Source: a virus. From it: a stretch of DNA of 58,245 nt. Location of the stretch: positions 1 through 58,245 of IMG/VR virus record IMGVR_UViG_3300025070_000036; one strand, written 5' to 3'. The notes under the pieces are model-generated. The model searched no databases. It was given only the letters and a program-made list of their open reading frames with translations, and was not told where the DNA came from. Each line of letters opens with the position of its first letter. Within the stretch, counting starts at the first letter, position 1. Shown piece by piece: positions 3,452 through 48,700 of this stretch. The position numbers and the translations under genes were made by a program.

Positions 3452-3634
3452 TTACCCCATTGGCCCTCGTGCAAATAGACCTTTAGTCGCTGCACCTGTG
3501 CCACGTATTTTGATTTTACCACCTTTGGCATAACCTTTTTTAGCCATACCACCTTTTTTAAAACCCATGTTTGCAACGACATCAGGTCTTTCTTTTTTTA
3601 AAGCTGCTAAACCTTTGTTTAACTTCTTAGCCAT
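3452..3634 (-). CDS. KGG-rich small basic protein
   Basis: This 60-residue protein is very rich in Lys and Gly and carries the repeated motif KKGGMAKKGYAKGGK around residues 26-40. It has a strong ribosome binding site (AGGAG twelve bases upstream of ATG). It is the first of several tiny lysine-rich proteins in this block. Binding to DNA or to acidic virion proteins is a plausible inference from charge. There is no known domain. Confidence 0.55.
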   Translation of the reverse strand: MAKKLNKGLAALKKERPDVVANMGFKKGGMAKKGYAKGGKIKIRGTGAATKGLFARGPMG

Positions 3635-5211: not shown

Positions 5212-5552
5212 TAACGCATCTTGCAAACTTTGCCGCCACGAGCCAAGCCGTAACCACGAATTTTGCCACCTTTTTTATAGCCTTTTTTAGCCATACCACC
5301 TTTAGCGTAACCTTTTTTCTTAACCTTACCGCCTTTTTTCATCATAGAAGGCATGTTCATACGGTCTTCGTCACGTTTAGCTTTTCCACGCATTTCGTTA
5401 GCACCAGCAGATAAACGATTTTCTTGCGCTCGAGTGAGGTTAGTGTCCGCACGTTGTCTTTTGCTGTCGCCCGGCATCTGAGTTAAAGATTTTTTCTTTT
5501 TTAACATATCAGACATCTTACCGCCTGCTTTGTAACCTTTTTTCTTCATCAT
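5211..5552 (-). CDS. KGG-repeat basic protein
   Basis: This 113-residue protein carries KAGGK, KKGGK, AKGGM and KKGGK motifs at both ends, flanking a charged helical middle (LTRAQENRLSAGANEMRGKA). The C-terminal repeat closely matches that of the 60-residue protein at 3,452-3,634, which suggests gene duplication within the block. It starts inside the stop of the upstream gene (ATGATGA overlap). A nucleic-acid or virion-packaging role is inferred from charge only. Confidence 0.55.
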   Translation of the reverse strand: MMKKKGYKAGGKMSDMLKKKKSLTQMPGDSKRQRADTNLTRAQENRLSAGANEMRGKAKRDEDRMNMPSMMKKGGKVKKKGYAKGGMAKKGYKKGGKIRGYGLARGGKVCKMR

Positions 5553-9545: not shown

Positions 9546-10572
9546 TTGCTTTCCTCATATCTATTGCAACCTGTTTGGCGTATTGTTCGGGTGTCAACCC
9601 CAACTTCTTAGCGATTTGTACCTGAGTGCGTGTCAACGTCACTTTCCGTGCTGCTTGGCTCCGCGTTGCGGGGGCAACCACTTGGGTCTTCTTTCGCTTC
9701 GGTTCAGCATCCTCGAAGTTTTCGGGGAATACTTGACGCATACGAGAGTTAATAGTCTCGTAGTATTCATCACTTTGTGGGCTTACGCCCTGTTTGACAA
9801 GTTTATTGTGCAACCCCAGCGCTAAACTCGTCATTTCGTCGTCGCTTCCAAACCACGTATTGGCTTTTTGCCAGTCTGCAGCTCGGCTATCAACTTGTAC
9901 TGCCGGAGCGGGTTGTTCTGTTTCTACTTCTACAGGGGTTTCTGGTTCCTGTAAAGATGGTAATTTGAAGTTTGCTAGTCTATCAGCCTTTAACTTAGCA
10001 TTGGTTAACTTTTCTTGTGCATCCAATACTGCATCAGAGTCACCAGATTCATACGCTGCTTTATATTCGCGTTTAGCATTTTCTGACTCAATAGAAGCAT
10101 TTTTCTTAGCTTGTTCAAGTAACGCTGTCTGATTCTTACTTACATTACCCTTTAGCTTCTTATTTTCTTCCATAAGTTGCTGAGTGACTCTTTCAAGTTC
10201 TTGACTTTGGCGATGAGCTTCTTCTTTAGCCCTGCGCTCGTCGTGGTAACCTTTGCTAAAATGCTGGATACGTTTACGAACCTTGTCAGAGTAATCTTCA
10301 AGTTCTTCATCCGTAACATCTGCCGGAGGCTCTGAAGCCTTGCGGTTACGATCTGCTTTAGGTGTATCATCTACAACCTCCACTTCAAAGTCGTCTTCCG
10401 AAGTTTCCTCGACTTTTTCCTTAGCTTTTGGCTCAGGAGTCTCTTCTACTTCCATGAAGTCTTCTTTAGTTTTCTTGCCGGATATATCAATTTCAACTGA
10501 ACCAGAATCTTCAATATCTAGTTTGTTGTCCTCTGGCTCCGGAAATTCAAATTCTACTTTCTGAAATGCCAT
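9538..10572 (-). CDS. Scaffold-like assembly protein
   Basis: The 344-residue product has an acidic, disordered N-terminus (residues 1-95, rich in Glu and Asp). A long predicted coiled coil runs from about residue 100 to 200, followed by a Pro/Glu linker and a basic C-terminal region (KRKKTQVVAPATRSQAARKV). The charged coiled coil with a basic C-terminus, placed between portal and capsid genes, is typical of internal scaffolds. Residues 101-122 (RIQHFSKGYHDERRAKEEAH) recur in permuted order in the early protein at 17,994-18,359. Confidence 0.7.
   Translation of the reverse strand: MAFQKVEFEFPEPEDNKLDIEDSGSVEIDISGKKTKEDFMEVEETPEPKAKEKVEETSEDDFEVEVVDDTPKADRNRKASEPPADVTDEELEDYSDKVRKRIQHFSKGYHDERRAKEEAHRQSQELERVTQQLMEENKKLKGNVSKNQTALLEQAKKNASIESENAKREYKAAYESGDSDAVLDAQEKLTNAKLKADRLANFKLPSLQEPETPVEVETEQPAPAVQVDSRAADWQKANTWFGSDDEMTSLALGLHNKLVKQGVSPQSDEYYETINSRMRQVFPENFEDAEPKRKKTQVVAPATRSQAARKVTLTRTQVQIAKKLGLTPEQYAKQVAIDMRKANG
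10207..10272 (-). repeat. Donor copy of permuted intragenomic repeat
   Basis: Within the scaffold gene, segment B (10,272-10,239, beginning CGTATCCAGCA) is followed by segment A (10,245-10,207, beginning CACGACGAGCG), with seven shared bases between them. Both segments occur again at 18,189-18,261 in the opposite order. By hand count, 35 of 39 bases of A and 29 of 34 bases of B are identical. Reading frame is preserved in both places. Confidence 0.8.
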
Positions 10573-10574
10573 AT

Positions 10575-10952
10575 CTACGCCCTCTGAATGCCTGCTGGAT
10601 CGTCTACAACTGCTTCGATTGAATCATCGTTCATTAGTCGATATTCAACGCCACCTATTGTAAAACGTGTTCCTGAGTTCATACGAAACATAACGAAGTC
10701 GCCTTCCTTACACCAAGGTCCGGTGGGGAAACGTTCGTCATCAGAGTACGCTTGATTACCCATATCCACAACAAGTCCTATGATAGACATGATATGGTCT
10801 TGAGTTTTAGCTGTTTCCGTTTTCAGGATCGATGTCCCTGCTACGGTTTCTTCGGGTTGTGGTAGTGCTACCAACACGCGGTATCCCACGGGTTTAGGTA
10901 GTTGTAGTTCCAATTCAGCATCGCTGATTTTAACTGCTGCTTCAGTCATCAT
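10575..10952 (-). CDS. GroES-like co-chaperonin
   Basis: The core reads PKPVGYRVLVALPQPEETVA, then TAKTQDHIMSIIGLVVDMGN and CKEGDFVMFRMNSGTRFTIG, ending VEYRLMNDDSIEAVVDDP. This is the order of strands and the mobile-loop region of GroES-type proteins, which cap GroEL during folding. Length (125 residues) is slightly above host GroES and close to phage versions. I chose the ATG at 10,952, with GGAA just upstream; an ATG three bases later is equally possible. It probably adapts host GroEL to fold the capsid protein. Confidence 0.65.
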   Translation of the reverse strand: MMTEAAVKISDAELELQLPKPVGYRVLVALPQPEETVAGTSILKTETAKTQDHIMSIIGLVVDMGNQAYSDDERFPTGPWCKEGDFVMFRMNSGTRFTIGGVEYRLMNDDSIEAVVDDPAGIQRA

Positions 10953-11139
10953 CGTTTTCCATATAGTTTTTCGCAAGGTCTTCAATGTATTGTTTGCTGG
11001 CTTCGAGACCCCGAATTAAGCCAACAACTTCCCTAAATTCCGCATAGTCTTTAGGTGACCCTGCGGTTAAGAAACTCTGTGCAGACGAGATGTCCTCGCC
11101 GATTTTACCTTTTAGCACGTCAAAGACGGTTTTAGCCAT
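10942..11139 (-). CDS. Small helical late protein
   Basis: The 65-residue protein (MAKTVFDVLKGKIGEDISSA, then REVVGLIRGLEASKQYIEDL) is mostly helical and ends in Asp-Asp-Asp. It lies between the portal and GroES-like genes. Its stop overlaps the next start within ATGATGACTGA, so translation is probably coupled. Its role is unknown; similar small proteins follow the portal gene in related phages. Confidence 0.55.
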   Translation of the reverse strand: MAKTVFDVLKGKIGEDISSAQSFLTAGSPKDYAEFREVVGLIRGLEASKQYIEDLAKNYMENDDD

Positions 11140-11145
11140 GATGTA

Positions 11146-13626
11146 TTATGACTCCTTTTTAGGTTTTTGTTTTGATTGCATCATTCTAGCAGTTTCAAGA
11201 CCGATCTTGTTGCGTTCGGCACGCCCTGCCTGTTCTAACTTAATACCTTTTTCTTCTGCTTCTATCGTAAGTTCTGCTTGATCTATCTTGACGCGTTCGG
11301 CGTCTAACATAGCAGAGGTGAGGTCTTTAGCTTTCTGCAGTTTTAGTTTTTCTTGTTGCAAGGCGCTATCTGCTTGGTCTTTTTGTGCTTTGCGTTGCTC
11401 TTCAGCTTGTTTGATCTGCAGCTCTGCCTGTTTCATCTGTATGATTGGGTCTTGCTGTTGCTGTTGAGCTTTCTGCTGCGCGGCTTGTTTCTGGTTAGCC
11501 TGCGTTAGTTGCTTGCCTGCGTCTGCAACCAGACGTGACAGTTGTACTTCCATATCCTCGTCCATCTCCTCGTTTGGAGCCGGTAGTGGTACACCAAGCT
11601 TCTCTTCGATCTTGGTGCGATATGAGAACCCTAAGTGTTCGGCAATGTGAGCCTGTAGCGAAGCCATGATCTGTTTGGCCTGTGGGTTCTGTCCGATCAT
11701 CTGAGCCATCATAGGGTCTTGCATGAACGAGGTATGCGTAGCTATGTGTGCCTCATGGTCTTGGTAGATAAACGCTTTTACCGGCTTGCCTACTAGGGCA
11801 TCCATATTCTCGCTTATCGGATCGGTTGGTTTTGCGTCGTCCTTAGTTGGAACGAGTTTGTCAGCGTTCTTCACGCCCAATACTTCTATCATCTGGCGAT
11901 GTAGCTGTGGTAAGTCGTATATCTGTGGTGCTTGCGACGACATCTGCAGGACAGTCTGATACTGTACCACACGTTGCGCCATAGTCGAGTTATTAGGGTC
12001 ACTGACAGGGATCACGTCCACCATCATGTAATCTTCCCTTTTAGCTCCTACCTCGCCTCTAGCGGGTATATAAGCGTACTCTTCAGGGGCATACTCTGCC
12101 ATGATTGCTTTGAGTAGTTTAAACTCTTGCTTCATCGCGTAATGTACGCGTGCTTGCACCGCAGCCATAGGTTTTAGTGTGCGCTCTAGTAAGGCTAGTG
12201 TAGTACCCACAGGAGCGTTAGCAGACATGTCAGAGATGTCCATATCGCTTATAGCACCTAGTCGTCGTCCTTCAGTAGTAATCTGATTGAGAAGCGCTAG
12301 GAGCGTCTGTGAAGGCTCTTTGTAAGGTAGCGGCATGATGTTGTCACGGATTGACCCTGACGGCACGTCTACGTCCTTAAATTCACCCGGCTCGATAGGT
12401 GTATCATCTCCCTTGATACGCAATCCACGGGACTTTAACCCTCCCGGGAGGTTGGAGAGCGTACCCGCGTCTACGAGTTGACGTATCAAGGAAGTACCGG
12501 CACGGGCGTACCCACCGATAATATGTATCAGGCCAAGGCCATAAAACCCAAATCCCGGTACATAGTTGTAGTGGACGAAGTGCTGGCGCTTGAGTGTGAG
12601 AGGGTCACCCTCCTCGTAGTTTCTACGGACCGCCAGCACTTCTCCACTTCCACGCTCAATCGTGACGACATATGGTCGAGCAATCCCATCCTCGTCATCA
12701 ATACCTTCTATAAGGAGGTCGGCGTGTATTTCGTAGATAGCGTAGCGGTCATCATCAGTGAGCGAATAGCCCCCTTCTTCCGCTTTCTTCTCTTCGATGT
12801 CTGTGTGGTAAGGCTCTGGCTCCCCAAGGTCTATGTCTCTATAGAACTCTGCGGCCTGTAGCTTCTTCAATTCATTCTTAGTTTTACGCATTACGTGTGT
12901 TACACGCTCTGCAGACTCAATATTCGACGCGCCGTAAGGCACAATCACGTCTTCTGCTGAGATATAAATAGCAGCTTGACGCCCTAAATTAGGGTCAAAA
13001 TACACCTTTTTAAACGCAGAACCTGCTAAACCAAGGCTATACAGCATACGTTCATGTTCTGGTCGGTACTCAACCATGTTTTCAGTCAATTCGTAGTTCA
13101 TATCGGCCATAACACGGGCAGCCGCTTCGTCTTTTTCCTTGGATTCTACCCCAAGTATCTTAGTTTTTACTGGTCCAGCCGCTGGCATGGTCTCACTCAC
13201 GGTCTCAGCTTGGAACCTTATAGCTGCTTCAGCTAAAACAGTAGAGTTTACGCCACATGCACCCTCCCAAGGCTCGGTACGTTCCTCATATTTGAAGCCC
13301 AACACGTCTAAACCTTTAACGAACGTATCTGCCCAGTCCTTACGACCCTCAATATCGGCCTTTACTTGCCCAACAAGCTCACCTGACAGCTCATCAAGGG
13401 CATCTTCACTCATAGATTCAGCTAAATTACCACCAAACTCAGTGAAATCACCCTCCATCCCGGGCATTATGGTTATCTCCATGCTCCCATCGGACAGAGT
13501 TACTGACTCTGGATCAACAATCTCAATCTCCATTTCAGGGATTTCCATCTCTTCCATGCCCTCGAGGTCACCTTCTAAGTCTTTTAGCCCCAGTGGAGCA
13601 GCGTATAGTCCTTTTTCAATAGCCAT
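11146..13626 (-). CDS. Portal protein
   Basis: The 826-residue protein has an acidic N-terminal region (residues 1-75). The portal core follows, with GACGVNSTVLAEAAIRFQAE and MPAAGPVKTKILG, then the YRPEHERMLYSLGLAGSAFK stretch typical of large portals of short-tailed phages. The C-terminal 150 residues are a Gln/Lys-rich coiled coil (about residues 670-820), consistent with a long barrel extending into the head. It forms the 12-fold DNA channel and docks the terminase encoded just upstream. The start has AGGA nine bases before the ATG. Confidence 0.85.
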   Translation of the reverse strand: MAIEKGLYAAPLGLKDLEGDLEGMEEMEIPEMEIEIVDPESVTLSDGSMEITIMPGMEGDFTEFGGNLAESMSEDALDELSGELVGQVKADIEGRKDWADTFVKGLDVLGFKYEERTEPWEGACGVNSTVLAEAAIRFQAETVSETMPAAGPVKTKILGVESKEKDEAAARVMADMNYELTENMVEYRPEHERMLYSLGLAGSAFKKVYFDPNLGRQAAIYISAEDVIVPYGASNIESAERVTHVMRKTKNELKKLQAAEFYRDIDLGEPEPYHTDIEEKKAEEGGYSLTDDDRYAIYEIHADLLIEGIDDEDGIARPYVVTIERGSGEVLAVRRNYEEGDPLTLKRQHFVHYNYVPGFGFYGLGLIHIIGGYARAGTSLIRQLVDAGTLSNLPGGLKSRGLRIKGDDTPIEPGEFKDVDVPSGSIRDNIMPLPYKEPSQTLLALLNQITTEGRRLGAISDMDISDMSANAPVGTTLALLERTLKPMAAVQARVHYAMKQEFKLLKAIMAEYAPEEYAYIPARGEVGAKREDYMMVDVIPVSDPNNSTMAQRVVQYQTVLQMSSQAPQIYDLPQLHRQMIEVLGVKNADKLVPTKDDAKPTDPISENMDALVGKPVKAFIYQDHEAHIATHTSFMQDPMMAQMIGQNPQAKQIMASLQAHIAEHLGFSYRTKIEEKLGVPLPAPNEEMDEDMEVQLSRLVADAGKQLTQANQKQAAQQKAQQQQQDPIIQMKQAELQIKQAEEQRKAQKDQADSALQQEKLKLQKAKDLTSAMLDAERVKIDQAELTIEAEEKGIKLEQAGRAERNKIGLETARMMQSKQKPKKES

Positions 13627-13637
13627 TGCTAATCCTT

Positions 13638-15194
13638 TTAATAATATCCGCCTCGGCGTCGTTTAAAGAACCGTTCTTCTTCTGGTTCGTCACTAGGTAA
13701 TCTGATAAATCCGCCCTGCCTAAACCGCATCAGAGCCATAACTGTAGAGTCCACGAGGTCATCATTACTCATAAATGGAAATCCTGCAATCTCTTCGACC
13801 ACTTCTTCAGCCCACCGTGTCTCTGGCACCCAGCAAATCCCAGATGCTACTATGTCTGCAACGGAATTAAGTCTAGCTAACTTATCTCCTGACCCCCTAT
13901 GTGGCGTGTACTCCGATACTGGCAAACCCATACGCCGCATCTCTTGATACAAGGCTACACCAGAACTTTTCTTCTCCACAATAAACGAATCAGGTTCCCA
14001 GTCGTGGTACTCTTCCATCGCAAGTTGTTTAAGTTCTGGGAACTCTATACGACGTTTTATACTATTTAACAATATAATATTGTAAGCTTCGGTCTCTTCG
14101 TTCAAGAAAACACCCCATGTAGTAAGTGCTGTGAAGTCTGCACGGTTATGTTTCTCGGCTGCCGCATCAAGCGACATGATAACATATTCACACGGAGGTG
14201 GTGAGTCGGGTATCCACTTGTTCCACCACTCCCGCTTGACCATAGCGGCCTCTTCGGTAGTGGGTTTCTGTTGATATTGGGAGTTCCATTGGAACACAGG
14301 CATTGATGCTTTGGTACGCAGTAAGGCTTCTAGGTCAAAGAACTCAGGCCATAGCGGTTTCTGTACAGTCTTTTTAGTTTTCTTATCTTCTATATCTAGT
14401 ATTGCAGGGAACTCGACCACATTATACTGGTCAGCTCGCTCATTTTTGCCCATATCACGCACCACTCGACCAGTTAGATCGTCTAAATGCCAACGTGTCT
14501 GTATAATTGCAACACGACCCCCGGGCATCAAACGTGTACGCGCACCGAATGTAAACCACTCATAGGCTTTCTCAAATACACCAAAGTTCCCGTTAATTAC
14601 ATCTTGCTCAGAATGTGGATCGTCCACAAGCAGTAAGTCAGCGCCACGCCCAGCCAGAGCAGAACCAATACCACACGCATAATATTCTCCCCCGACATTT
14701 GTATTCCACCTTCCTGCTGATTTACTATCTTGTGCTAATTTTACTGTAGGGAATATAGATCGGTACGCTTCCATAGCTATTAAGTTACGAACTTTACGTC
14801 CAAAATCCACCGCTAGGTCTGTCGTGTGTGAGACCATCATAACTTTCTTATCTGGGTTCCTACCTAAGAACCATGCTGGAAAGAAGATAGACACAAGCTG
14901 TGACTTACCATGTCGTGGTGGAATGTTGACACATATACGGTCTTCATCCCCAGATTCAATCGCCATAAGCATGTCTGCAAGGATTCTGTGGTGCTTTCCC
15001 ACTATGAACTCCGGCATCATTAGCTTACAAAACTCTATTAGGTCATCATATGCACCCTTATTAACGGCTCTGACGCTGAGTTCATCGACCATACGGTCAA
15101 TCTCAGCAACTTCTTCCTCACTAAACGAGTCTAAGTTGGCCAACATGACCTCAATCTCAGCTTCATCAAAGGCAAGAACGTCAGTCGTCATCAT
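13638..15194 (-). CDS. terL: Terminase large subunit
   Basis: The protein has an ATPase domain with Walker A PPRHGKSQ near residue 93 and Walker B LLLVDDPHSE near residue 190. The coupling region TRWHLDDLTGRVV lies near residue 240. The C-terminal nuclease domain shows VIMSLDAAAE near 343, VEKKSSG near 407 and DDLVDSTVMAL near 485, giving the acidic residues of an RNase H-type fold. It cuts and pumps DNA into the prohead. I chose the ATG at 15,194 (MMTTDVLAF), overlapping the TerS stop in ATGATGACTGA. Size is normal for the family. Confidence 0.93.
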   Translation of the reverse strand: MMTTDVLAFDEAEIEVMLANLDSFSEEEVAEIDRMVDELSVRAVNKGAYDDLIEFCKLMMPEFIVGKHHRILADMLMAIESGDEDRICVNIPPRHGKSQLVSIFFPAWFLGRNPDKKVMMVSHTTDLAVDFGRKVRNLIAMEAYRSIFPTVKLAQDSKSAGRWNTNVGGEYYACGIGSALAGRGADLLLVDDPHSEQDVINGNFGVFEKAYEWFTFGARTRLMPGGRVAIIQTRWHLDDLTGRVVRDMGKNERADQYNVVEFPAILDIEDKKTKKTVQKPLWPEFFDLEALLRTKASMPVFQWNSQYQQKPTTEEAAMVKREWWNKWIPDSPPPCEYVIMSLDAAAEKHNRADFTALTTWGVFLNEETEAYNIILLNSIKRRIEFPELKQLAMEEYHDWEPDSFIVEKKSSGVALYQEMRRMGLPVSEYTPHRGSGDKLARLNSVADIVASGICWVPETRWAEEVVEEIAGFPFMSNDDLVDSTVMALMRFRQGGFIRLPSDEPEEERFFKRRRGGYY

Positions 15195-15777
15195 CAAACC
15201 CAAATTCTTCGTTAATATCTATATCGTTCGGGGTCAAAACCACTGCATCTTCTACTTCAGGCTCTGGATTTACCAGTTTTGCAAGCTTGCTACGTAGTTT
15301 TTCTTTAATATCATCAGTGGTTTGGTGTGTAATCGTCACTTCGGACTTCTCTGTGAACAATCCCACGTCTGAAATCTTACCTAGAAGCTCTAATGCACGC
15401 ATTCGTACACGAGGATCAGGGTTTTCAGTCTCCATGACAAGCTTGTTGGTCACTAAATTGCGTAATTGCTTCGAAGATTCTACCACAGAGTGGTTAAATT
15501 CATCAATTATAGCACCTGTCATCTTAATAGAAGGGGGTGTTAGCTTTGCTGCACGCTTGTGTGTCACTTTTCGGGACGTTTTGTCGGGTTCTTGTGCAAA
15601 TGCGGTAGCCAAAACAGCGGCGACTTCCTTATCTCCCTCATCAGGAGTGGTGTCTAGCCCATGTTTCTCTAATTCTTCGACAGTTTTAGCCATCGCAACT
15701 GCACGATCTGGCAGATGTAACTGCTTTACTTCATCTTCTAAGGGTACACCCATCTCTGGGGTAAGATTCATTGTCAT
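15181..15777 (-). CDS. Terminase small subunit (putative)
   Basis: The 198-residue product begins MTMNLTPEMGVPLEDEVKQL. It has a helical middle (IIDEFNHSVVESSKQLRNLV, RVRMRALELLGKISDVGLFT) and a C-terminal TTDDIKEKLRSKLAKLVNP segment followed by an acidic tail ending DDDD. Position directly before terL and this helical plan fit a DNA-recognising small terminase. An upstream in-frame ATG at 15,837 lies inside the promoter -35 box, so I use 15,777. The acidic C-terminus may contact TerL. Confidence 0.65.
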   Translation of the reverse strand: MTMNLTPEMGVPLEDEVKQLHLPDRAVAMAKTVEELEKHGLDTTPDEGDKEVAAVLATAFAQEPDKTSRKVTHKRAAKLTPPSIKMTGAIIDEFNHSVVESSKQLRNLVTNKLVMETENPDPRVRMRALELLGKISDVGLFTEKSEVTITHQTTDDIKEKLRSKLAKLVNPEPEVEDAVVLTPNDIDINEEFGFDDDD

Positions 15778-15808
15778 AACACATCGCAGGTTGTTAACCG
15801 GTAACGTA

Positions 15809-15837
15809 ATAATAGGATACAAAAAATTTTTTATCAA
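15809..15837 (-). promoter_or_regulatory. Late-operon promoter before TerS
   Basis: On the minus strand, TTGATA (15,837-15,832) and TATTAT (15,814-15,809) are separated by exactly 17 bases; each box matches five of six consensus positions. Transcription would start near 15,802, some 25 bases before the TerS start. The spacer contains A5T6, which may bend the DNA. Confidence 0.65.
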
Positions 15838-15871
15838 GGGTTTTCAAAAAGGGGTGGGGGGTTTTCAAAAA
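15838..15871. repeat. 13-bp direct repeat with G-rich spacer
   Basis: GGGTTTTCAAAAA occurs at 15,838-15,850 and again, identically, at 15,859-15,871. The eight bases between them form part of the G-rich tract GGGGTGGGGG. The pair lies immediately upstream of the TerS promoter, where a terminase recognition site or regulator site is often found. The role is not visible. Confidence 0.6.
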
Positions 15872-15933
15872 ATACAACTTTATTCATCCAGATTAGTAAT
15901 AATAGGTACATAGGAGTCCCGTTAACAGACAGC

Positions 15934-15950
15934 GGTGGGGTGGGGTAGGG
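15934..15950 (+). other. G-rich tract able to form a G-quadruplex
   Basis: The sequence GGTGGGGTGGGGTAGGG has four G-runs separated by one or two bases; the first run has only two Gs. It lies in the divergent control region between late and early genes. Together with the tract at 15,851-15,861 it makes this the most G-skewed part of the window that I noticed. Confidence 0.5.
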
Positions 15951-15971
15951 TATGCCTTCGATATAACGTTT

Positions 15972-15989
15972 TTCGGGCAGTTGCCCGAA
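15972..15989. repeat. 18-bp palindrome, copy 1
   Basis: TTCGGGCAGTTGCCCGAA: two perfect eight-base arms around GT. This copy lies in the divergent region, 124 bases before the first early start codon and 43 bases before the proposed early promoter. Confidence 0.9.
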
Positions 15990-16031
15990 TGGTATTTAAT
16001 GCTGTTTTGTTTGTTTTTATGGGTATACCTG

Positions 16032-16060
16032 TTGAATGGTGTAACATCTTATGGCATAAA
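16032..16060 (+). promoter_or_regulatory. Putative first early promoter
   Basis: TTGAAT (16,032-16,037), a 17-base spacer and CATAAA (16,055-16,060) lie 54 bases before the first early gene. TGG before the -10 box matches the extended -10 form seen at 7,459, 17,434 and 18,421. Each box matches four of six consensus bases, so it is weaker than the others. Confidence 0.45.
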
Positions 16061-16113
16061 TAACTTATTGGAACGCCACAATGGATAGCCAAGGTTCTTG
16101 AAAGGAACATATT

Positions 16114-16746
16114 ATGTCAAAGACTACTAAAACAACTAAGACTACAGTAACCGCATTAGAAAAGCTTGGTGCAGGTGCAGAGACTATTGGAGCATTCGAA
16201 GCAGGCGCGTTGGTTAAGATAGGCCAAGCGGCAAAAGGGGCAGATGATGTTATCAACCCGCTAATTCAAACTATGTACACCAACGGAATACGTGCTAACG
16301 ATTGGAAAGCAAAAGCGGGATTGCCTGCAGGTTCTAAAATACCTGCTGAACATACTAAAGCTTACCAAGAGCGTCTTGCATTTTTTGGCCAAGGTGTTTG
16401 GAGCGTAGCAGATAAGGTGGCACTAAAACAGCCTGCACCAAAAGTAGGCGACTTCAAAACAAAAGGTGATTTTCTAGCGGCAAAAGCAGAACGCAAAGCA
16501 TTACAAGACAAACCATCAACCAAGATGAAAAACCTTGCAAAACGTTTTGCCACACTAGCCAAGAATGACCCCGATAACAAAGAGGTCAACGGTGCTAATG
16601 ACAAAGCGACGGCGATTGAAACACTAGGAAAGAAAATTGCAGAGTGTATTAAGTTACTACAAAGCGACCGACCATTTCCAGATACGTTTGAACATGATAT
16701 GGCATGTTCAACTCTAATCGCCTACAAAAATACATACATCAAATAA
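16114..16746 (+). CDS. First early protein, unknown, 210 residues
   Basis: I do not recognise a family. The N-terminus is a Thr/Lys-rich tail (MSKTTKTTKTTVTALEKLGA). The rest is Lys and Ala rich and mostly helical, with a charged middle (GDFLAAKAERKALQDKPSTK) and a C-terminal segment with one Cys (HDMACSTLIAYKN). AGGA lies eight bases before the ATG. It stands alone between the early promoter and a strong terminator, so it is probably made early and in quantity. Host takeover is a common role for genes in this place, but that is only an inference. Confidence 0.7.
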   Translation: MSKTTKTTKTTVTALEKLGAGAETIGAFEAGALVKIGQAAKGADDVINPLIQTMYTNGIRANDWKAKAGLPAGSKIPAEHTKAYQERLAFFGQGVWSVADKVALKQPAPKVGDFKTKGDFLAAKAERKALQDKPSTKMKNLAKRFATLAKNDPDNKEVNGANDKATAIETLGKKIAECIKLLQSDRPFPDTFEHDMACSTLIAYKNTYIK

Positions 16747-16753
16747 TACTACC

Positions 16754-16788
16754 AACCCCAGAGCCAAACGGTTCTGGGGTTTTTCTTT
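16754..16788 (+). terminator. Terminator after first early gene
   Basis: AACCCCAGA and TCTGGGGTT form a nine-pair stem, extended inside by CC/GG around an AAAC loop, and are followed by TTTTTCTTT. It lies eight bases after the stop of the first early gene. Confidence 0.85.
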
Positions 16789-16796
16789 GTCCAAAA

Positions 16797-16814
16797 TTCG
16801 GGCAGCTGCCCGAA
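16797..16814. repeat. 18-bp palindrome, copy 2
   Basis: TTCGGGCAGCTGCCCGAA is fully symmetric over all 18 bases. It directly follows the terminator at 16,754-16,788 and is followed by CATTTGATACCAGT, a flank shared with the copy at 17,051. Confidence 0.9.
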
Positions 16815-16914
16815 ACATTTGATACCAGTTCTCTATCAGCGGTACGCATTACATGTTGCATCTGCATACTGCATGTGATAGCAAGTCATTACATTGCACC
16901 ACAATGCCTCACTA

Positions 16915-16939
16915 GACCCACTTCGGTGGGTCTTTTTTT
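16915..16939 (+). terminator. UUCG-loop terminator in gene-free region
   Basis: GACCCAC and GTGGGTC form a seven-pair stem closed by TTCG and followed by CTTTTTTTA-type U-run. No gene precedes it, so it probably ends a short untranslated transcript, or is a second stop for read-through from the first early gene. Confidence 0.85.
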
Positions 16940-16940
16940 A

Positions 16941-16958
16941 TTCGGGCAACTGCCCGAA
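16941..16958. repeat. 18-bp palindrome, copy 3
   Basis: TTCGGGCAACTGCCCGAA begins one base after the U-run of the terminator at 16,915. Its downstream flank (TATGATACCTGTTCCCAGAG) is related to that of the next copy. Confidence 0.9.
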
Positions 16959-17050
16959 AGTTATGATACCTGTTCCCAGAGTAGTGTTGCGCCTAACACG
17001 TTTAGTCATGTTCCAATGGGGTTTGCATATAAGATGTCACCATATTACAC

Positions 17051-17068
17051 TTCGGGCAACTGCCCGAA
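17051..17068. repeat. 18-bp palindrome, copy 4
   Basis: TTCGGGCAACTGCCCGAA with a downstream flank CATTTGATACCAGTACCCAG that matches copies 2 and 3. No start codon with a ribosome binding site follows; the iteron cluster does. Confidence 0.9.
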
Positions 17069-17105
17069 ACATTTGATACCAGTACCCAGAGTAGTGCTAC
17101 GCCCC

Positions 17106-17197
17106 TAAGTCATTGAAAACAAACAAATGTTCCAAATGTTCCAAGCTTGTTCCAAGCAAATCGGGCGTAAGTCATTGAAAACAAACAAATGTTCCAA
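17106..17197. repeat. Exact 30-bp direct repeat, period 62
   Basis: The 30 bases beginning TAAGTCATTGAAAACAAACA and ending ATGTTCCAA are identical at 17,106-17,135 and 17,168-17,197. Each unit ends in a TGTTCCAA motif and is followed by further motifs, so the whole block looks like a duplicated iteron set. Confidence 0.85.
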
Positions 17198-17392
17198 TGT
17201 TCCAATAATATTTATATATATATACTCCTAAGTTTGGAGAGTAAGAGAGAGGGTCTCTGCCCTAAAAACCACTTCTCAGATTTAGACATATACCTTTGGA
17301 ACAAAGGAACTTTGGAACATTCTTTTAAAATCAATGGGTTACATACATACACAACGTCACACGATGTCACAAAGCACCAATCACCACGAGAC

Positions 17393-17439
17393 ACCACAAT
17401 TCCCAATTACTTGACATTGCCTACTATATGTGGTAATAT
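17393..17439 (+). promoter_or_regulatory. Early promoter with paired operator half-sites, copy A
   Basis: TTGACA (17,411-17,416), a 17-base spacer and TAATAT (17,434-17,439) form a promoter with extended -10 TGG. ACCACA at 17,393 and TGTGGT at 17,429 form an inverted pair whose starts are 36 bases apart, flanking the -35 box. The same arrangement recurs at 18,378-18,426, including the shared core AATTACTTGACATT. Confidence 0.75.
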
Positions 17440-17519
17440 GTTATATGGTTGATAGGTAACAGCCCAACCAAGTCCCAATACCAACGTTACCACTTCCATC
17501 TTTCATTTAACTTTAACCT

Positions 17520-17537
17520 TTCGGGCAACTGCCCGAA
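17520..17537. repeat. 18-bp palindrome, copy 5
   Basis: TTCGGGCAACTGCCCGAA lies in the leader of the transcript from promoter A, ending 16 bases before the ATG at 17,554, with GGAG between. Confidence 0.9.
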
Positions 17538-17553
17538 TACATGGAGATACACT

Positions 17554-17784
17554 ATGCAACAAACAGTAACAGCCAGAGGTTTCGCTTGGAACTCAAGCAC
17601 ACGTACGTATTCAAATGAGGTACGTTTCGAAGCCCCAAACCTAATCGCCGCCAAGCGGTGGGTTGAAAGTAAATATCTGCAACTCGAGAACTTATCCATA
17701 TTGCAGACAAATGAAGAGTATCTACTACAAAGCTTACTCCTTCATTCTCCCGTGCAAGCTGTAACAAATGAGGTGATCGAATGA
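17554..17784 (+). CDS. Small early protein, 76 residues
   Basis: The ATG at 17,554 follows the palindrome and a GGAG; the frame is open further upstream but that part crosses the palindrome and promoter leader. The product (MQQTVTARGFAWNSSTRTYS, then AAKRWVESKYLQL) is a mixed alpha/beta small protein with no motif I know. Its end overlaps the next start by four bases. It is the first gene of the operon from promoter A. Confidence 0.6.
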   Translation: MQQTVTARGFAWNSSTRTYSNEVRFEAPNLIAAKRWVESKYLQLENLSILQTNEEYLLQSLLLHSPVQAVTNEVIE

Positions 17785-17984
17785 GTAAGAATGTTTGCGA
17801 TTGCTGTGGCGATACATTCTCAGTGCGCCGCGCAAAACTTGGATACACAGTGTGTTTAGATTGCGGTGACAATCAGGCGCAAAGCCAACGTGCAAGTTGG
17901 TGCGTAGTACCGCTTCCCAAACAAGGCTATACACTCGCCACTCGTAAAGAAGATTTGTTGTATCTTAACCAAAAACCACGATAG
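17781..17984 (+). CDS. DksA-type zinc-finger miniprotein
   Basis: The 67-residue protein carries CDCCGDTFSVRRAKLGY and VCLDCGD, giving a four-Cys finger at about C6, C9, C25 and C28 of the DksA/TraR type. The C-terminus (WCVVPLPKQGYTLATRKEDL) matches a tail I have seen in small phage proteins of this kind. In the DksA family the finger helps contact RNA polymerase; here only the finger remains, without the coiled-coil tip. It overlaps the previous gene by ATGA. Confidence 0.65.
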   Translation: MSKNVCDCCGDTFSVRRAKLGYTVCLDCGDNQAQSQRASWCVVPLPKQGYTLATRKEDLLYLNQKPR

Positions 17985-17993
17985 GAGATTGTG

Positions 17994-18359
17994 ATGAAAT
18001 TCGAAAACTACAGTGTAGTGAAATGCCCTATGGGTATAGCTATCAAACCTAACAATGGTGACAGCGATTTAGAAGTGACCTTAACTATAGAAAATGATAC
18101 TCTATGTGTAACTTTGCACGCACACGATAATGATTGGTGTGGCCCTGACCACATCGTAAGTGAAATCCAACACCCAATCAAATCAGCCCACGACGAGCGT
18201 AAGGCTAAAGAAGAAGCTTCTCGCCAACGTATCCAACAGTTTAGCAAAGGTTATTACGATGGTTGGAACAGTGAAGATTTTAAATGTGACAAATGCGGTG
18301 AGCCGTTAGGAGCAGATGATCTTGATGAATGTGGTGATTGCCACGACAATACACAATAA
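17994..18359 (+). CDS. Early zinc-finger protein with scaffold-derived segment
   Basis: The ATG at 17,994 sits seven bases after AGGAG; a GTG three bases earlier is too close. Residues 1-60 form a beta-rich domain (LEVTLTIENDTLCVTLHAHD). Residues 66-89 (HDERKAKEEASRQ followed by RIQQFSKGYYD) match the scaffold protein in swapped order. Residues 101-118 hold CDKCGEPL and CGDC, a zinc-binding pattern. The function is unknown. The match to a late structural gene at the DNA level is the notable feature. Confidence 0.7.
   Translation: MKFENYSVVKCPMGIAIKPNNGDSDLEVTLTIENDTLCVTLHAHDNDWCGPDHIVSEIQHPIKSAHDERKAKEEASRQRIQQFSKGYYDGWNSEDFKCDKCGEPLGADDLDECGDCHDNTQ
18189..18261 (+). repeat. Permuted copy of scaffold-gene segment
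   Basis: Segment A (18,189-18,227, starting CACGACGAGCG) is directly followed by segment B (18,228-18,261, starting CGTATCCAACA). In the scaffold gene (10,207-10,272, minus strand) B precedes A. Differences are 4 of 39 and 5 of 34 bases by hand count. Both copies are read in the same frame. Confidence 0.8.
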
Positions 18360-18465: not shown

Positions 18466-18483
18466 TTCGGGCAGATGCCCGAA
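18466..18483. repeat. 18-bp palindrome, copy 6
   Basis: TTCGGGCAGATGCCCGAA, followed by CAACAAACGGAGA and the ATG at 18,502. It lies about 33 bases after the expected transcript start of promoter B. Confidence 0.9.
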
Positions 18484-19493: not shown

Positions 19494-19511
19494 TTCGGGC
19501 AGTTGCCCGAA
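19494..19511. repeat. 18-bp palindrome, copy 7
   Basis: TTCGGGCAGTTGCCCGAA, followed by CAACAAACGGAGA and the ATG at 19,531. The whole leader is nearly identical to that of copy 6. Confidence 0.9.
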
Positions 19512-26475: not shown

Positions 26476-28305
26476 ATGGATTTAATCACACTGGATTTTG
26501 AAACCTATTACGATAAAGATTATTCTTTAAGTAAGATAACTACTGAAGCTTATGTCCGTGACCCTCGTTTTGAGACCGTGGGCGTAAGCGTAAGACTTAA
26601 CAACGGAAAAACGGAGTGGGCTAGTGGTACGCATGAACAGATCAAGAAATACCTCAACACGTTCCCTTGGGATACGTCTATGTTACTTTGTCATAACACT
26701 ATGTTCGATGGTGCTATTCTTGATTGGCGTTATAATATTCGCCCTCGCATGTATACCGATACTTTGTGTATTGCCCGTGCTTTACACGGGGTGGAAGCTC
26801 GTTCAAACCTCGCATCGCTTGCTGAAAGGTATAAGATCGGTAAGAAGGGGACAGAAGTTCTCGACGCACTCGGAAAGCAACGTGCAGATTTTACACCCGA
26901 AGAACTAAGTGCGTACGGGGATTACTGTATCAATGATGTAGAGTTAACCTATAAGCTGTTTAGTATAATGGCACGTAACTTTCCCAAATCTGAATTACGT
27001 TTGATTGACCTGACACTACGCATGTTTACACAACCAACGTTAGAGTTAGATGATGACCTACTAATATCACACCTTAGTGACGTTAAAGCACGTAAGGATA
27101 AGTTGTTAGTAGATGCAGGTATTGATGATAAAAAAGACCTGATGTCCAACCCCAAGTTCGCTGAACTACTTAAAGGGCTTGGCGTAGAACCTCCCATGAA
27201 AATAAGCGCAACCACAGGTAAAGAGACACATGCGTTTGCAAAGTCAGACGAAGGATTTAAAGCATTACTCGAACACGAAAACCCAAAGGTAAAGTCTTTA
27301 GTAGAAGCACGTCTGGGTAACAAGTCTAGTCTTGAAGAGACACGTACACAGAGGTTTATAGACATATCCCAGCGTGGGCTTCTACCCGTACCTGTAAAAT
27401 ATTATGCCGCGCACACCGGACGTTGGGGTGGTTCAGATAAGATCAATCTACAAAACCTACCTAGCCGTGGTGCGAATGGTAAGAAGTTAAAGAGTAGTAT
27501 AGTAGCACCCGAAGGACACACGCTGATTGATTGCGATAGTTCTCAGATCGAAGCTCGCGTGCTTGCATGGTTGGCAGGGCAAACCGATTTAGTTGCACAG
27601 TTCGCGGCAGGTGAAGACGTGTACAAATATATGGCGTCTAGCATATACTCAGTTTCAGTTAAGAACGTTACCAAAGATCAAAGGTTTGTGGGTAAGACTA
27701 CAATTCTGGGTGCAGGGTACGGCATGGGGGCTGTAAAGTTCCAAGCGCAGTTACAAGGGTTTGGTGTTTACATTGAGCTTGATGAAGCACGCCGTATCAT
27801 AGAAATATATCGTGGCACTAATGGAGCTATAAGCCAGTTATGGCGTGACGCTAACAACATGGTGCAGTACATGGCACGCGGAGATAGCATACAGTTTGGC
27901 AAAGAAGGTGTCTTGCAAGTAGACGCACGCAAGAACGCTATCATTTTACCTAATGGTCTACCTATGTTTTATCATGGCTTGGCGGCTGAACGCGGAGAGC
28001 GCGGGTATGAGTATACATACCGAACAAGAAAAGGCCCGAACCGTATATACGGGGGTAAGGTTGTGGAGAACGTATGCCAAGCTATAGCTCGCTGTATCAT
28101 AGGGCATCAAATGATACTCCTTGCCAAGAGGTACAAGGCTGTGTTAACTGTACATGACTCGATTATTACCTGTGTTCCTGACGAAGAGTTGGTTGAAGCA
28201 CAAGCGTACATGGAAGAGTGTATGAGCCAAACGCCTGATTGGGCAAAAGGTTTACCTATAACCTGTGAGAGTGGCACAGGCAAATCATATGGAGAATGTG
28301 AGTGA
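26476..28305 (+). CDS. Family A DNA polymerase with 3'-5' exonuclease
   Basis: The exonuclease domain carries D7 and E9 in TLDFETYY, HNTMFDGAILDW near residue 74 and YCINDVELTYKLF near 151. The polymerase domain shows motif A DCDSSQIEARVLAWLAGQ near 351, motif B KTTILGAGYGMGAVKF near 405 and motif C VHDSI near 558. The 609-residue length fits phage replicative PolA without a 5' nuclease domain. Motif C has Ser after HD, where Glu is usual in PolI. It replicates the phage genome with the primase-helicase encoded downstream. Confidence 0.92.
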   Translation: MDLITLDFETYYDKDYSLSKITTEAYVRDPRFETVGVSVRLNNGKTEWASGTHEQIKKYLNTFPWDTSMLLCHNTMFDGAILDWRYNIRPRMYTDTLCIARALHGVEARSNLASLAERYKIGKKGTEVLDALGKQRADFTPEELSAYGDYCINDVELTYKLFSIMARNFPKSELRLIDLTLRMFTQPTLELDDDLLISHLSDVKARKDKLLVDAGIDDKKDLMSNPKFAELLKGLGVEPPMKISATTGKETHAFAKSDEGFKALLEHENPKVKSLVEARLGNKSSLEETRTQRFIDISQRGLLPVPVKYYAAHTGRWGGSDKINLQNLPSRGANGKKLKSSIVAPEGHTLIDCDSSQIEARVLAWLAGQTDLVAQFAAGEDVYKYMASSIYSVSVKNVTKDQRFVGKTTILGAGYGMGAVKFQAQLQGFGVYIELDEARRIIEIYRGTNGAISQLWRDANNMVQYMARGDSIQFGKEGVLQVDARKNAIILPNGLPMFYHGLAAERGERGYEYTYRTRKGPNRIYGGKVVENVCQAIARCIIGHQMILLAKRYKAVLTVHDSIITCVPDEELVEAQAYMEECMSQTPDWAKGLPITCESGTGKSYGECE

Positions 28306-28970
28306 CAAAAGTAGCACCGTGGTCTTTCAGTAAGATTAAAGCATTTGAGCAATGCCCCAAGCAATTCTACCATGACAAGATACTCAAAGAGTTCCCGTTT
28401 AAAGAGACAGATGCTACCCTGTATGGAACAGCTTTTCACAAAGCCGCAGAAGATTTTATTGGTAAGGACACTCCTCTACCTAAGAAGTTTAGCTTTGCGG
28501 AAGAGGCACTGGTATCGCTGAAAAACCGCACAGGCGAAAAACTATGCGAAATAAAACTAGGTATAAACTCTGATTTAGAAGCATGTGATTTCTACGCCAA
28601 AGATGTTTGGTTTCGTGGTATCGCTGACTTAGTTATACTGGACGGTGATCTCGCATGGGTAGTAGATTACAAGACAGGCAAGTCTTCTAAGTATGCAGAC
28701 AAAGGACAGCTAGAGTTAATGGCGTTGGGTTTGTTTGCTAAGTACCCCCAAATTAAGACTGTACGTGCAGGGTTATTTTTTGTTGTATGTAATGACTTGG
28801 TAAAAGACACATACATGGAGTATGATAGCCATAAGCTGTGGGGGAAATGGTTAAGTAAGTACGACCAGATGAAGGCCGCGGCTGAAAACGATGTGTGGAA
28901 CGCACGGCCTAACGGCTTATGCAGACGACACTGCCCTGTAATTGAATGTGTTCACAATGGAGCAAATTAA
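28302..28970 (+). CDS. Cas4/RecB-like nuclease with probable Fe-S cluster
   Basis: The GTG start overlaps the polymerase stop as GTGA. Residues 7-27 (WSFSKIKAFEQCPKQFYHDK) form the start of the RecB/Cas4 domain with C18. The metal site is seen in RGIADLVI near 108 and DYKTGK near 123. C207, C211 and C216 in GLCRRHCPVIECVHNG complete a four-Cys set, as in the iron-sulphur cluster of Cas4 and AddB nucleases. It likely trims DNA ends during recombination or replication. No other CRISPR gene or array is present. Confidence 0.82.
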   Translation: MTKVAPWSFSKIKAFEQCPKQFYHDKILKEFPFKETDATLYGTAFHKAAEDFIGKDTPLPKKFSFAEEALVSLKNRTGEKLCEIKLGINSDLEACDFYAKDVWFRGIADLVILDGDLAWVVDYKTGKSSKYADKGQLELMALGLFAKYPQIKTVRAGLFFVVCNDLVKDTYMEYDSHKLWGKWLSKYDQMKAAAENDVWNARPNGLCRRHCPVIECVHNGAN

Positions 28971-31525: not shown

Positions 31526-32233
31526 ATGGCAGAAACTTACATTATTGAAAACGTAGAAGCATTATGGCCTAAGATCGACAAGACGTATACGTTCGATCAA
31601 AGCGTAAAACGTAGTGTGCCTTGTAGTCCAAGAGACCAGAATGCAGAGTTTTCTATTGCATTTCGTATGGATAGCGCGACAGCTAAAGCGTTATTTATGC
31701 AGATGAAGGCCGCGTATGATGCTAACAAAGAGCCTAAATGGGCAGACAAGTTAGTTAACCCGTTTGTTAAAGATGACAACGGTACATACACTCACAAAGC
31801 AAACCTAAAAGGTGCTTATAAAGGTGAAGTCACTAACAAACCACTCCAAGTGGATTCACAAGGCACACCATTGCCAGAAGATTTTCAATTAACAACAGGT
31901 AGTACAGTAAGTGTAGCTGTGCAGTTGATACCTTATGACTTTGGTGGTAAACAAAGTGTGTCGCTACGACTAAAAGCTGTACAGGTTATTAAGTATGTTC
32001 CTATGGAAGTACGTAATCCGTTTGGTGCTGTAGATGGTGGCTTTGTTATGGAAGACGCTAATCCTTTTGCATCAACACCTAAAGCTGTGAAGAGCAATAA
32101 CGTGTTAGATGAAGCTCCCGCAGATGACGGGTTTGACGAAGAGCCAGTAAAAAGAACCGCTAAAAAAGCGGCGGCTGTGCCACCTTCTGACGACGGAGAC
32201 TTAGGTTCGATCATAGATAATTGGGACGACTAA
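31526..32233 (+). CDS. Single-stranded DNA-binding protein, DUF2815-like
   Basis: The 235-residue protein has an N-terminal and central OB-fold-like region (IIENVEALWPKIDKTYTFDQ, VSVAVQLIPYDFGGKQSVSL). It ends in a linker and an acidic tail (DLGSIIDNWDD). This matches DUF2815, a phage family thought to bind single-stranded DNA; the acidic tail is how SSB proteins contact partners. It sits just before the primase-helicase. AGGAG precedes the ATG. Confidence 0.75.
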   Translation: MAETYIIENVEALWPKIDKTYTFDQSVKRSVPCSPRDQNAEFSIAFRMDSATAKALFMQMKAAYDANKEPKWADKLVNPFVKDDNGTYTHKANLKGAYKGEVTNKPLQVDSQGTPLPEDFQLTTGSTVSVAVQLIPYDFGGKQSVSLRLKAVQVIKYVPMEVRNPFGAVDGGFVMEDANPFASTPKAVKSNNVLDEAPADDGFDEEPVKRTAKKAAAVPPSDDGDLGSIIDNWDD

Positions 32234-45711: not shown

Positions 45712-48700
45712 TATGTTTCTCCAAGTATTCTTAGTAGCATATCATTTTCATCCTCTACCTGTCCACCCTGTGCGAACCCACTAGCACGAGAAAATGGCCT
45801 TAACGTTTGATTTGCAGGTTGCATAACATCGCGTTGTCCAAATGGAGAGCCAAACATACTTTCTTGTTGCGGTGTAGCAAAGATACTTTCTCCACCAATG
45901 TCATATAAATAGTCTAATTTTACTTTGTCTCCAGACTTAACATCTACACGTTGCCCACCAATATCATCTGATTCAGCTAGTAGTTTTTGGAACTCTGCAA
46001 AATTTTGTTGGTTTGTCTGCGTGTTAATCTGTGTGTTCATGTCCGTTATCATATCAGTAACTGCGTCATTCTTTGTATCCATCTCTGCATACAAGCCAGT
46101 GGCAGGGTTAAACATAGAAGTATCCGCAAAGGTAACATCGTTACCCTGTAGCTTATCTGATAACATGTTCTGGTCGTTTATGTCAACGATACCATCACCT
46201 GTAACATCATACTGCGTAATTAACTCTTCGCTAACGTTTTCTTGCGCAATTAAGTCTATAACAAAGTCTATATCTGTCTCAGTAACCTTCCGCGCAGGTT
46301 TACCAATAAGGTCGGCTATAGTATCTACATCCAAGCCTAATGCGGCTAGATCACTAGAAAGAGTACCTATACTTCCTTCTAACCCACTAATCCCAGTTTC
46401 AAACTTCTCTGTAAGGTTAGCTTCTGTAGTGCCAAGTTCCTCAAGAATGTTAGCTTCAGTAGTCCCTAAATCATCAGCAAGTTCGTCTAATGCAGCGTTA
46501 ACATCGCCGTTATTCTCTTCGATAAGTGCGGTTAGGTTTGTTTCTAAGTTACTAACGCTTTCCTCTACACCACTAATCCCAGTTTCAAATTTGTCTGTGA
46601 GGTTAGCTTCTGTAGTACCAAGCTCCTCAAGTATGCTAGCTTCACCCACTCCCATAGCAGTTGCAAGTTCGTCCAACGCAGCAGAAACATCACCGTTATT
46701 CTCTTCGATAAGTTCAGTTAAGCTTGTTTCTAAGTCGGATATAGCCTCTGCATTTACTCCTGTAGCTTCATCAACTATATCTTGAACATCTTCAGAACTA
46801 AGGTTGTTCATATCTGCTAAGGCATCTTCTATTGCAGAGGATACATCCGCATCACTAAGGTTATTCATGCCCGCTAAAGCATCTTCTATTGCAGAGGATA
46901 CATCTTCAGGACTAGCTGATTCTGGTAAATTGCCTATAGCTGTGTCTATAATATCCTTCACATCATCCGCAGTGAGTGGATCATCTACAGGTTCGGATGG
47001 AATAAGTTCATCAACCGAGTCATCAGGAGTAGGGCCAATCGGCATTGGAAAAATAGCGTCGTCACCTACAGGTTCGGATGGAATAAGTTCACCAAAATCA
47101 TCGTCAGGTATATCAGGAAAAGGAGTAAAATCACTTTCACCCTCTTTTGGGTCTTCAACTGGAAGAGTCCCGCTAGCAGGAGGTTTTACTACCCAACCAC
47201 TACCTTCTACAGGGGTATACCCACTGTTAGGAGCGCTGTAAGTTTCACCTGTAATTTCGTTTACATAATCAACCATAACCGGTGAAGTTATACTTCCCGC
47301 TGGTGGGGGTGTAATCCCATCAGGGACTTCTCCAGAAGATGGTTTATCGCCAAAGGGAGGGCGATTATTGTCAAAAATTGGGTCACTATCCCCCATATCA
47401 GGATAATACCCAGCAAACACGTTGTTGCCGTCTGCATCAGTATAAAACAGAGATTTATCTTCTATTTCTGCTATAGCAGCGTTTAAAGCTTCAGTTTCAT
47501 CAGGGTTTTGCCCTACAAATTTTTCAGCCTGCTCGTCTGTAAGAGTTATGCCCGATGCTTCTGCTGCGGCTTTTACTTCGTCTACGTCTAAATAACGTTT
47601 GTCTATATAACTTGCCACTAACGTAGCGACTTCAGAGTCAGGTCTGTTAGATACAAAAGATTCTATTTCTGCTTCTGTAGGTATATAATCAGGGTTTTGA
47701 TTCTCAAACGCTTTTGCAGCTTCTGCAGTGCTTACATATTGTGTATCATATGAAGTGTTTAGTATGTTGTTTAGTATTACATTGTCTGTAATACCTAGTT
47801 CCCCTAAAGCTGCTACAGCAGCAGTGGAATTACCTGCATTCCCCATTGCATTTATAACGCTTGAGTTAACTGACATCAATGTATCAGCTACTGCGTTACC
47901 AGTGTAGATACCTCCTGAAGTTCCCGCACCCGTCAGTTTACCAAGTATTGCTGACCCAGTAACATTACCCGCTACATCGTATGTCGGGTCAATCATAGCC
48001 AAAGACATACCGGTTATAAGTTGTGGTAAACCTTCTTCAATACTTTCAGTGACACCTTCTTTTACAGTTACTGTACCACCTTCTTTTATTTTCTTAAACA
48101 ACGCGTTAAACGCACCTGTTGAAACATCATCAACTTTGTCCCCAAGAACAGATTTTGCAAGAGCTTGTCCACCAATGCCAGCAGTTGCAGCTAGGGTTAT
48201 AACTGCAGTAGTACCCGCCGCTTGCGCAATATCAATAGCATAATCCGTTGCTTCTTGTTCGGACATCCCAGTCTTTATTGCTGTAGCATATGCTTCGTCG
48301 AACGCCCCTGCCGCTGTACCCCCAAAAGCTTCGGTTGCATCTAAAGTAAGAGCTGTCCCAAGTTTTGCCTTAGTAGCTATTTTTGTAGCATATGCTTCTC
48401 CAGCTTCTAGCAAACCTTTTTTAGCTAGATTGCCTACACCGCCAGATGCAAGTAGAAGAGGTACTTCTTGTATTATTTCTTTAACAACGTACTCAGACAA
48501 AAATTCTACAGGGTTATCCCATGCAGCACCATATATAGCTTGTGCCTTTAATAGCACTTTCTTAGCAGTAGAGGGTTCTTGCCCCGGATTATCTTCCCGC
48601 CACTGTTTATCGTAGTCTGCCATTGCATCATCTATTTCTCCAAGAGCATTTGCATACTCTTCAGATCGTAAGTCACCGCTAGCACTAATCAAGTTATCTG

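Follow-up and report, generated by a model that had tools for sequence, protein, structure and literature searches.

How did a block of a putative scaffold gene come to lie, with its two halves exchanged, within a small gene 8 kb away on the other strand? The question arises in the window, i.e., the whole stretch of 58,245 nucleotides of viral DNA analyzed here (IMG/VR record IMGVR_UViG_3300025070_000036), where the scaffold-gene block B-A (minus strand, 10207–10274) is found again, as A-B, in a small gene of the plus strand (18188–18261). An earlier reading made from the sequence alone (the sequence-only reading) had reported such a permuted match in the same reading frame, and it was borne out by the alignment. 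Over whole codons, segment A showed 35/39 identical bases (HDERKAKEEASRQ in the recipient and HDERRAKEEAHRQ in the scaffold gene), and segment B, over the 34 bases taken in that reading, showed 29/34 (RIQQFSKGYYD in the recipient and RIQHFSKGYHD in the scaffold gene). Both segments were found in the same frame in the two genes, and the match diagonals of A and B differed by exactly 66 nt, i.e., 22 codons. The features of the locus are listed in Table 1.

Table 1. Features of the two genes and candidate recombination functions (window coordinates).
Feature	Position	Strand	Remarks
Putative scaffold gene (donor), 344 aa	9538–10572	−	phrog_28737 (unknown function)
Imperfect direct repeat, partner copy at the end of A, CATCGCCAAAGT	10204–10215	−	66 nt from the other copy; possible slip point for the A-to-B jump
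Segment A in scaffold gene (HDERRAKEEAHRQ)	10207–10246	−	36/40 identical bases to 18188–18227 (+)
Segment B in scaffold gene (RIQHFSKGY)	10247–10274	−	26/28 identical bases to 18226–18253
Imperfect direct repeat, copy at the start of B, GTTCGTAAACGT	10270–10281	−	TCGnnAAnGT in common with partner copy
Small gene (recipient), 121 aa	17994–18359	+	From translation; no Pfam or PHROGs family above threshold
Conserved head, 63 codons	17994–18182	+	Predicted mostly β; 90–91% identical to L002–L004, 79% (aa) to L005
Segment A in recipient	18188–18227	+	Match to scaffold A
Segment B in recipient	18228–18261	+	After A (swapped order); match to scaffold B
Novel C-terminal tail	18262–18359	+	CxxC...CxxC (GWNSEDFKCDKCGEPLGADDLDECGDCHDNTQ); relative in viral contigs: L001 only
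Exonuclease	28302–28970	+	phrog_69, E 1.6e-22
Gp2.5-like ssDNA-binding and annealing protein	31526–32233	+	phrog_112, E 1.8e-20; candidate annealing agent

The best ungapped scores of segments A and B were 28 and 22, respectively, while the maximum in 40 dinucleotide shuffles of the small gene was 13. A blastn search of the recipient gene against the window returned E values of 4e-10 and 8e-7 for the two segments, and the comparison of the window with itself, from which regulatory palindromes had been filtered out, returned 7e-8 and 1.3e-4. The A/B pair is the longest inverted repeat of the window. Between separate coding genes, this self-comparison listed no further similarities except matches among small genes at 3.5–6.7 kb, and the remaining matches were tandem or nearby repeats.

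Several other repeats are recorded here in their own right. Two small minus-strand genes carry 44-base stretches (3513–3556 and 5260–5303) that match at 89%. The minus-strand gene 1585–2361 contains a repeated 57-base unit (1861–2247), with a spacing of 66 bases between most copies, and a 178-base direct repeat (81–83% identical, 46372–46735) was observed within a minus-strand gene of very large size. A 39-base stretch (17106–17144) located upstream of the cluster of early genes ends in TGTTCCAA words; it is repeated 62 bases on (17168–17205) with 97% identity, and its complement recurs near 17306–17342. The palindrome TTCGGGCA-NN-TGCCCGAA is present in ten copies between 15972 and 29260, all in the early region, where none are expected by chance; the sites include 17520–17537, 18466–18483, and 19494–19511, and several lie just upstream of early-gene starts. 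Other relatives keep this palindrome. In one close relative (L005/L105), the early region contains six copies of a different one, TTAGGGA-NN-TCCCTAA (L105, 13250–16308), a change that looks like a concerted switch of an operator or leader-hairpin sequence.

The putative scaffold gene has a GroES-like gene on one side and, on the other, two small genes and then the major capsid gene. Its position just before the capsid gene, which was recognized by a capsid family match, and its long helical, charged product are those of a scaffolding protein. A comparison of the protein with PDB sequences gave no match, and the structure search returned only weak matches to named scaffolding proteins. The AlphaFold model predicted a long, well-supported helix (residues 88–176) containing the A/B block. 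In all 83 open-frame scaffold copies from viral contigs, down to ∼78% amino acid identity, the block was found to be single and always in the order B-A, and most of its residues were invariant in 40 aligned scaffold relatives. The same order, GroES, scaffold-like gene, two genes, and capsid, is found in Pelagibacter phage HTVC027P and Roseobacter phage CRP-901 and is shared with HTVC023P-type pelagiphages and Roseobacter CRP-901-type phages, but their scaffold-like proteins are only 25–47% identical to that of the window over the matched part. The block is ∼7 residues shorter in four aligned distant scaffold relatives than in the window.

The coding sequence of the recipient starts with ATG at 17994, with an in-frame GTG upstream at 17991, and the predicted strands of its head lie between residues 6 and 61. 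AlphaFold placed A-B in a helix (residues 65–89) following the β-rich head, with low-to-modest confidence; the model is weak (pLDDT 64, built on four sequences), and a fold search with it returned nothing significant. Where the sequence-only reading had a shared coiled-coil piece, a helix is predicted in both proteins, with low confidence in the recipient. The sequence-only reading had also called the recipient an early zinc-finger protein. A CxxC...CxxC motif is indeed present in the tail, which includes DGWNSEDFKCDKCG, while the best Pfam matches fall far below the cut-off; both "early" and "zinc finger" are putative designations. Strong sigma-70-like sites are present at 17411 and 18398, but the region has just as many sites of this type as its shuffles do. 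Apart from L001, a near-identical twin of this virus, no relative of the tail was found in viral contigs, phages, plasmids, or genome contigs; the last three gave only weak matches (E 0.2 or worse). Two candidate sources were rejected, namely phrog_4615 as parent of the tail, a weak match (E 0.047) to a non-specific model that hit 9/14 control genomes and none of the relatives, and a separate family with GYYDGWN from which B might have come; the proteins found by scanning for GYYDGWN were unrelated, and none had the tail.

The recipient gene is rare, with five loci in 2.9 million viral contigs, and four of the five lack A-B. Its relatives share only the first ∼63 codons and then continue into other tails without A-B (L002, L003, and L005). 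In L002–L004, the head is followed by HYCECHATYQDCGYQDCCR or a variant of it, the tail of L004 being of the L002 type, and in L005 it is followed by YDEVQKNYY. The L005 tail does not qualify as a deletion remnant of A-B, as it gave 11/27 matches where shuffles averaged 13.4. The DNA homology to L002 stops at 18182, and A begins six bases later; hence, A-B fills the join between the conserved head and the tail, i.e., a mosaic junction. A head common to L002–L005, a segment from the scaffold gene, a unique tail, and a sharp change in homology are the features of intragenic mosaicism, and the donor segment is preserved elsewhere in its ancestral B-A arrangement. Since the B-A order holds in every scaffold copy and the other recipient-gene loci are devoid of A-B, the scaffold gene is the donor and the small gene the recipient. 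The segment in the recipient is homologous, permuted, in frame, and scaffold-derived, as the sequence-only reading had it. L005 resides on one contig with a scaffold gene (L007) that is 97% identical to that of the window, yet it is without A-B, which shows that A-B was gained independently of the history of the scaffold.

To date the transfer, as that reading had suggested, homologs were aligned with the recipient copy put back into the B-A order (66 bases). The nearest allele was that of L005/L007, with 5/66 differences (two codons synonymous and three not), followed by 7/66 for the window's own scaffold allele, whereas the scaffold family as a whole showed a median of 14 and a maximum of 19. 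In a tree of the 66-nt block, the recipient copy fell within the window's clade with modest support (0.83). As the nearest allele is so close and lies inside the phage's own clade, the copying is, by this measure of divergence, recent relative to the divergence of the scaffold family. A sister lineage, and not this genome itself, may have donated the block.

Three other origins of the A-B segment were weighed. Two charged helical stretches might have come to resemble each other by chance or by convergence, given that E, K, and A abound in segment A and that KGYYDGWN is a short motif that occurs also in unrelated phage ORFs (L094 and L102). The codon-level identity of both pieces, however, lies far above that of shuffles, the pieces adjoin each other in both genes, and the nearest scaffold allele falls within the same phage clade; the probability of this explanation is thus close to negligible, and the base-level match refutes it in practice. 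An assembly artefact, which would have undone the earlier claim, was found to be very improbable as well. No end repeats are present in the virus contig record that makes up the window, and relatives' contigs frequently break off near 15.8–16.8 kb, but these breaks lie >1 kb away from A-B and the open frame of the recipient gene is intact. Moreover, L001, a contig under another IMG/VR identifier that is 99.97% identical to the window over 11.7 kb and not identical overall, carries the same 74 bases of A-B, so that an artefact is not borne out as far as it could be tested. A tandem route appears possible, though doubtful. According to it, a 66-nt tandem duplication in the scaffold gene (B-A-B-A) arose, and recombination carried the central A-B into the early gene. 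The exact 66-nt difference between the diagonals fits such a route, the scaffold gene has a 10-base imperfect direct repeat, with a 66-nt offset between its copies, that could have seeded the duplication, and the native IQHPIKSA of the early gene, upstream of A, is in register with B. Against it, two units were found in none of the 83 scaffold ORF copies, and a scan for the A-to-B junction in 2.9 million viral contigs found only this virus and one chance match (L088, an unrelated frame with serine codons); this absence holds for the sampled contigs and is not proof of absence in general. A tandem-repeat intermediate was found neither among the scaffold copies nor in the junction scan. The earlier proposal of a tandem duplication followed by different deletions is not supported, as only single copies occur in the scaffold relatives read and the early gene's relatives lack the segment altogether; its variant, the transfer of a tandem copy, is possible, with the required intermediate not found.

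The A-B segment is rather more probably a short templated insertion at the mosaic junction, with brief, imperfect homologies as the sites of annealing or template switching. It would have arisen during recombination or replication of DNA of this phage or of a close sister in the same cell, when the variable C-terminal tail of the small early gene was replaced. A nascent strand at the join would have annealed to the scaffold gene and copied ∼40 nt (A); following a 66-nt slip back at the imperfect direct repeat (TCGnnAAnGT), or re-annealing next door, ∼34 nt (B) would have been copied and joined to the new tail. The patches, being in frame and helical, could then have survived as a linker helix between the β-rich head and the cysteine-rich tail. 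At the entry point, the native IQHPIKSA lies in register with IQHFSKGY of the scaffold and 12/23 bases agree, a weak homology that 1.3% of the in-phase comparisons of these genes attain, and TCGnnAAnGT is common to the two scaffold sites of the A-to-B jump. These homologies are modest and suggest annealing as a reading of the junctions. Two short patches (40 + 34 nt) from an ectopic locus are what template switching leaves, and with two such patches, or a single 66-nt slip, the data would need no intermediate that has escaped detection. The Gp2.5-like protein could possibly have carried out the annealing. Recombination of highly diverged DNA is established for lambda Red and for further phage recombinases of the Rad52-like type (PMC2327257, PMC3945230), and a similarly relaxed fidelity for the Gp2.5-like protein of this phage would be an extrapolation. 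Only this virus and its near-identical twin L001 hold A-B, and hence the steps cannot be ordered on a tree.

Regarding function, the simplest role of A-B in the predicted structure would be that of a linker helix. It had been suggested that the early protein may bind the scaffold. Put more broadly, the early protein would have taken the scaffold helix for assembly, binding the scaffold or its partner and tuning or blocking assembly early in infection. The copied block does come from a highly conserved part of the scaffold and is predicted to be helical in both proteins. However, the copied stretch is short and its order permuted, other members of the head family lack it, and three of the 22 shared residues are changed, two of them (R114K and H104Q) at positions invariant in the 40 aligned scaffolds. 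As A-B occurs in one virus lineage only, selection is not measurable. Binding of the scaffold is thus not supported, and we regard an assembly role as improbable. That the permuted helix docks the early protein on a scaffold or capsid partner, a chance templated insertion giving a new assembly regulator in one step, would be a long shot. Antisense control of the scaffold mRNA was rejected, as A and B are in sense orientation in both the early and the scaffold mRNA. There is no sign yet that the copied piece gave the recipient a new function, and the preferred reading remains a templated insertion retained as a linker.

The locus is well explained as real and recent intragenic mosaicism on a very small scale in a marine phage, a gene mixing of an already known kind; the permuted order is unusual and worth recording, and it is not a new kind of system. 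It provides a fine-grained, recent example of phages building new C-terminal tails of small early genes, here with a scrap of one conserved assembly gene that was copied as two exchanged pieces at a recombination junction and stayed in frame. Should permuted patches prove frequent among phages that encode Gp2.5-like annealing proteins, they would record template switching during phage replication directly and offer helices a way of spreading from one gene to an unrelated one. The papers listed in a literature search included no case of a templated insertion in a tailed phage. Microhomology-driven templated insertions in eukaryotic repair, as far as the cited accounts describe them (PMC8421209, PMC11724301), are similar in that short patches are copied from elsewhere at a junction, while the polymerase step is here only a proposal. 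Relaxed homologous (homeologous) phage recombination (PMC2327257, PMC3945230) likewise involves diverged sequences and short imperfect joins, and an annealing protein is encoded here too. Unlike the mosaicism produced by homeologous recombination in phages, the copied piece in the present case spans ∼70 nt within a gene, derives from a non-allelic site in the opposite orientation, and has its halves swapped.
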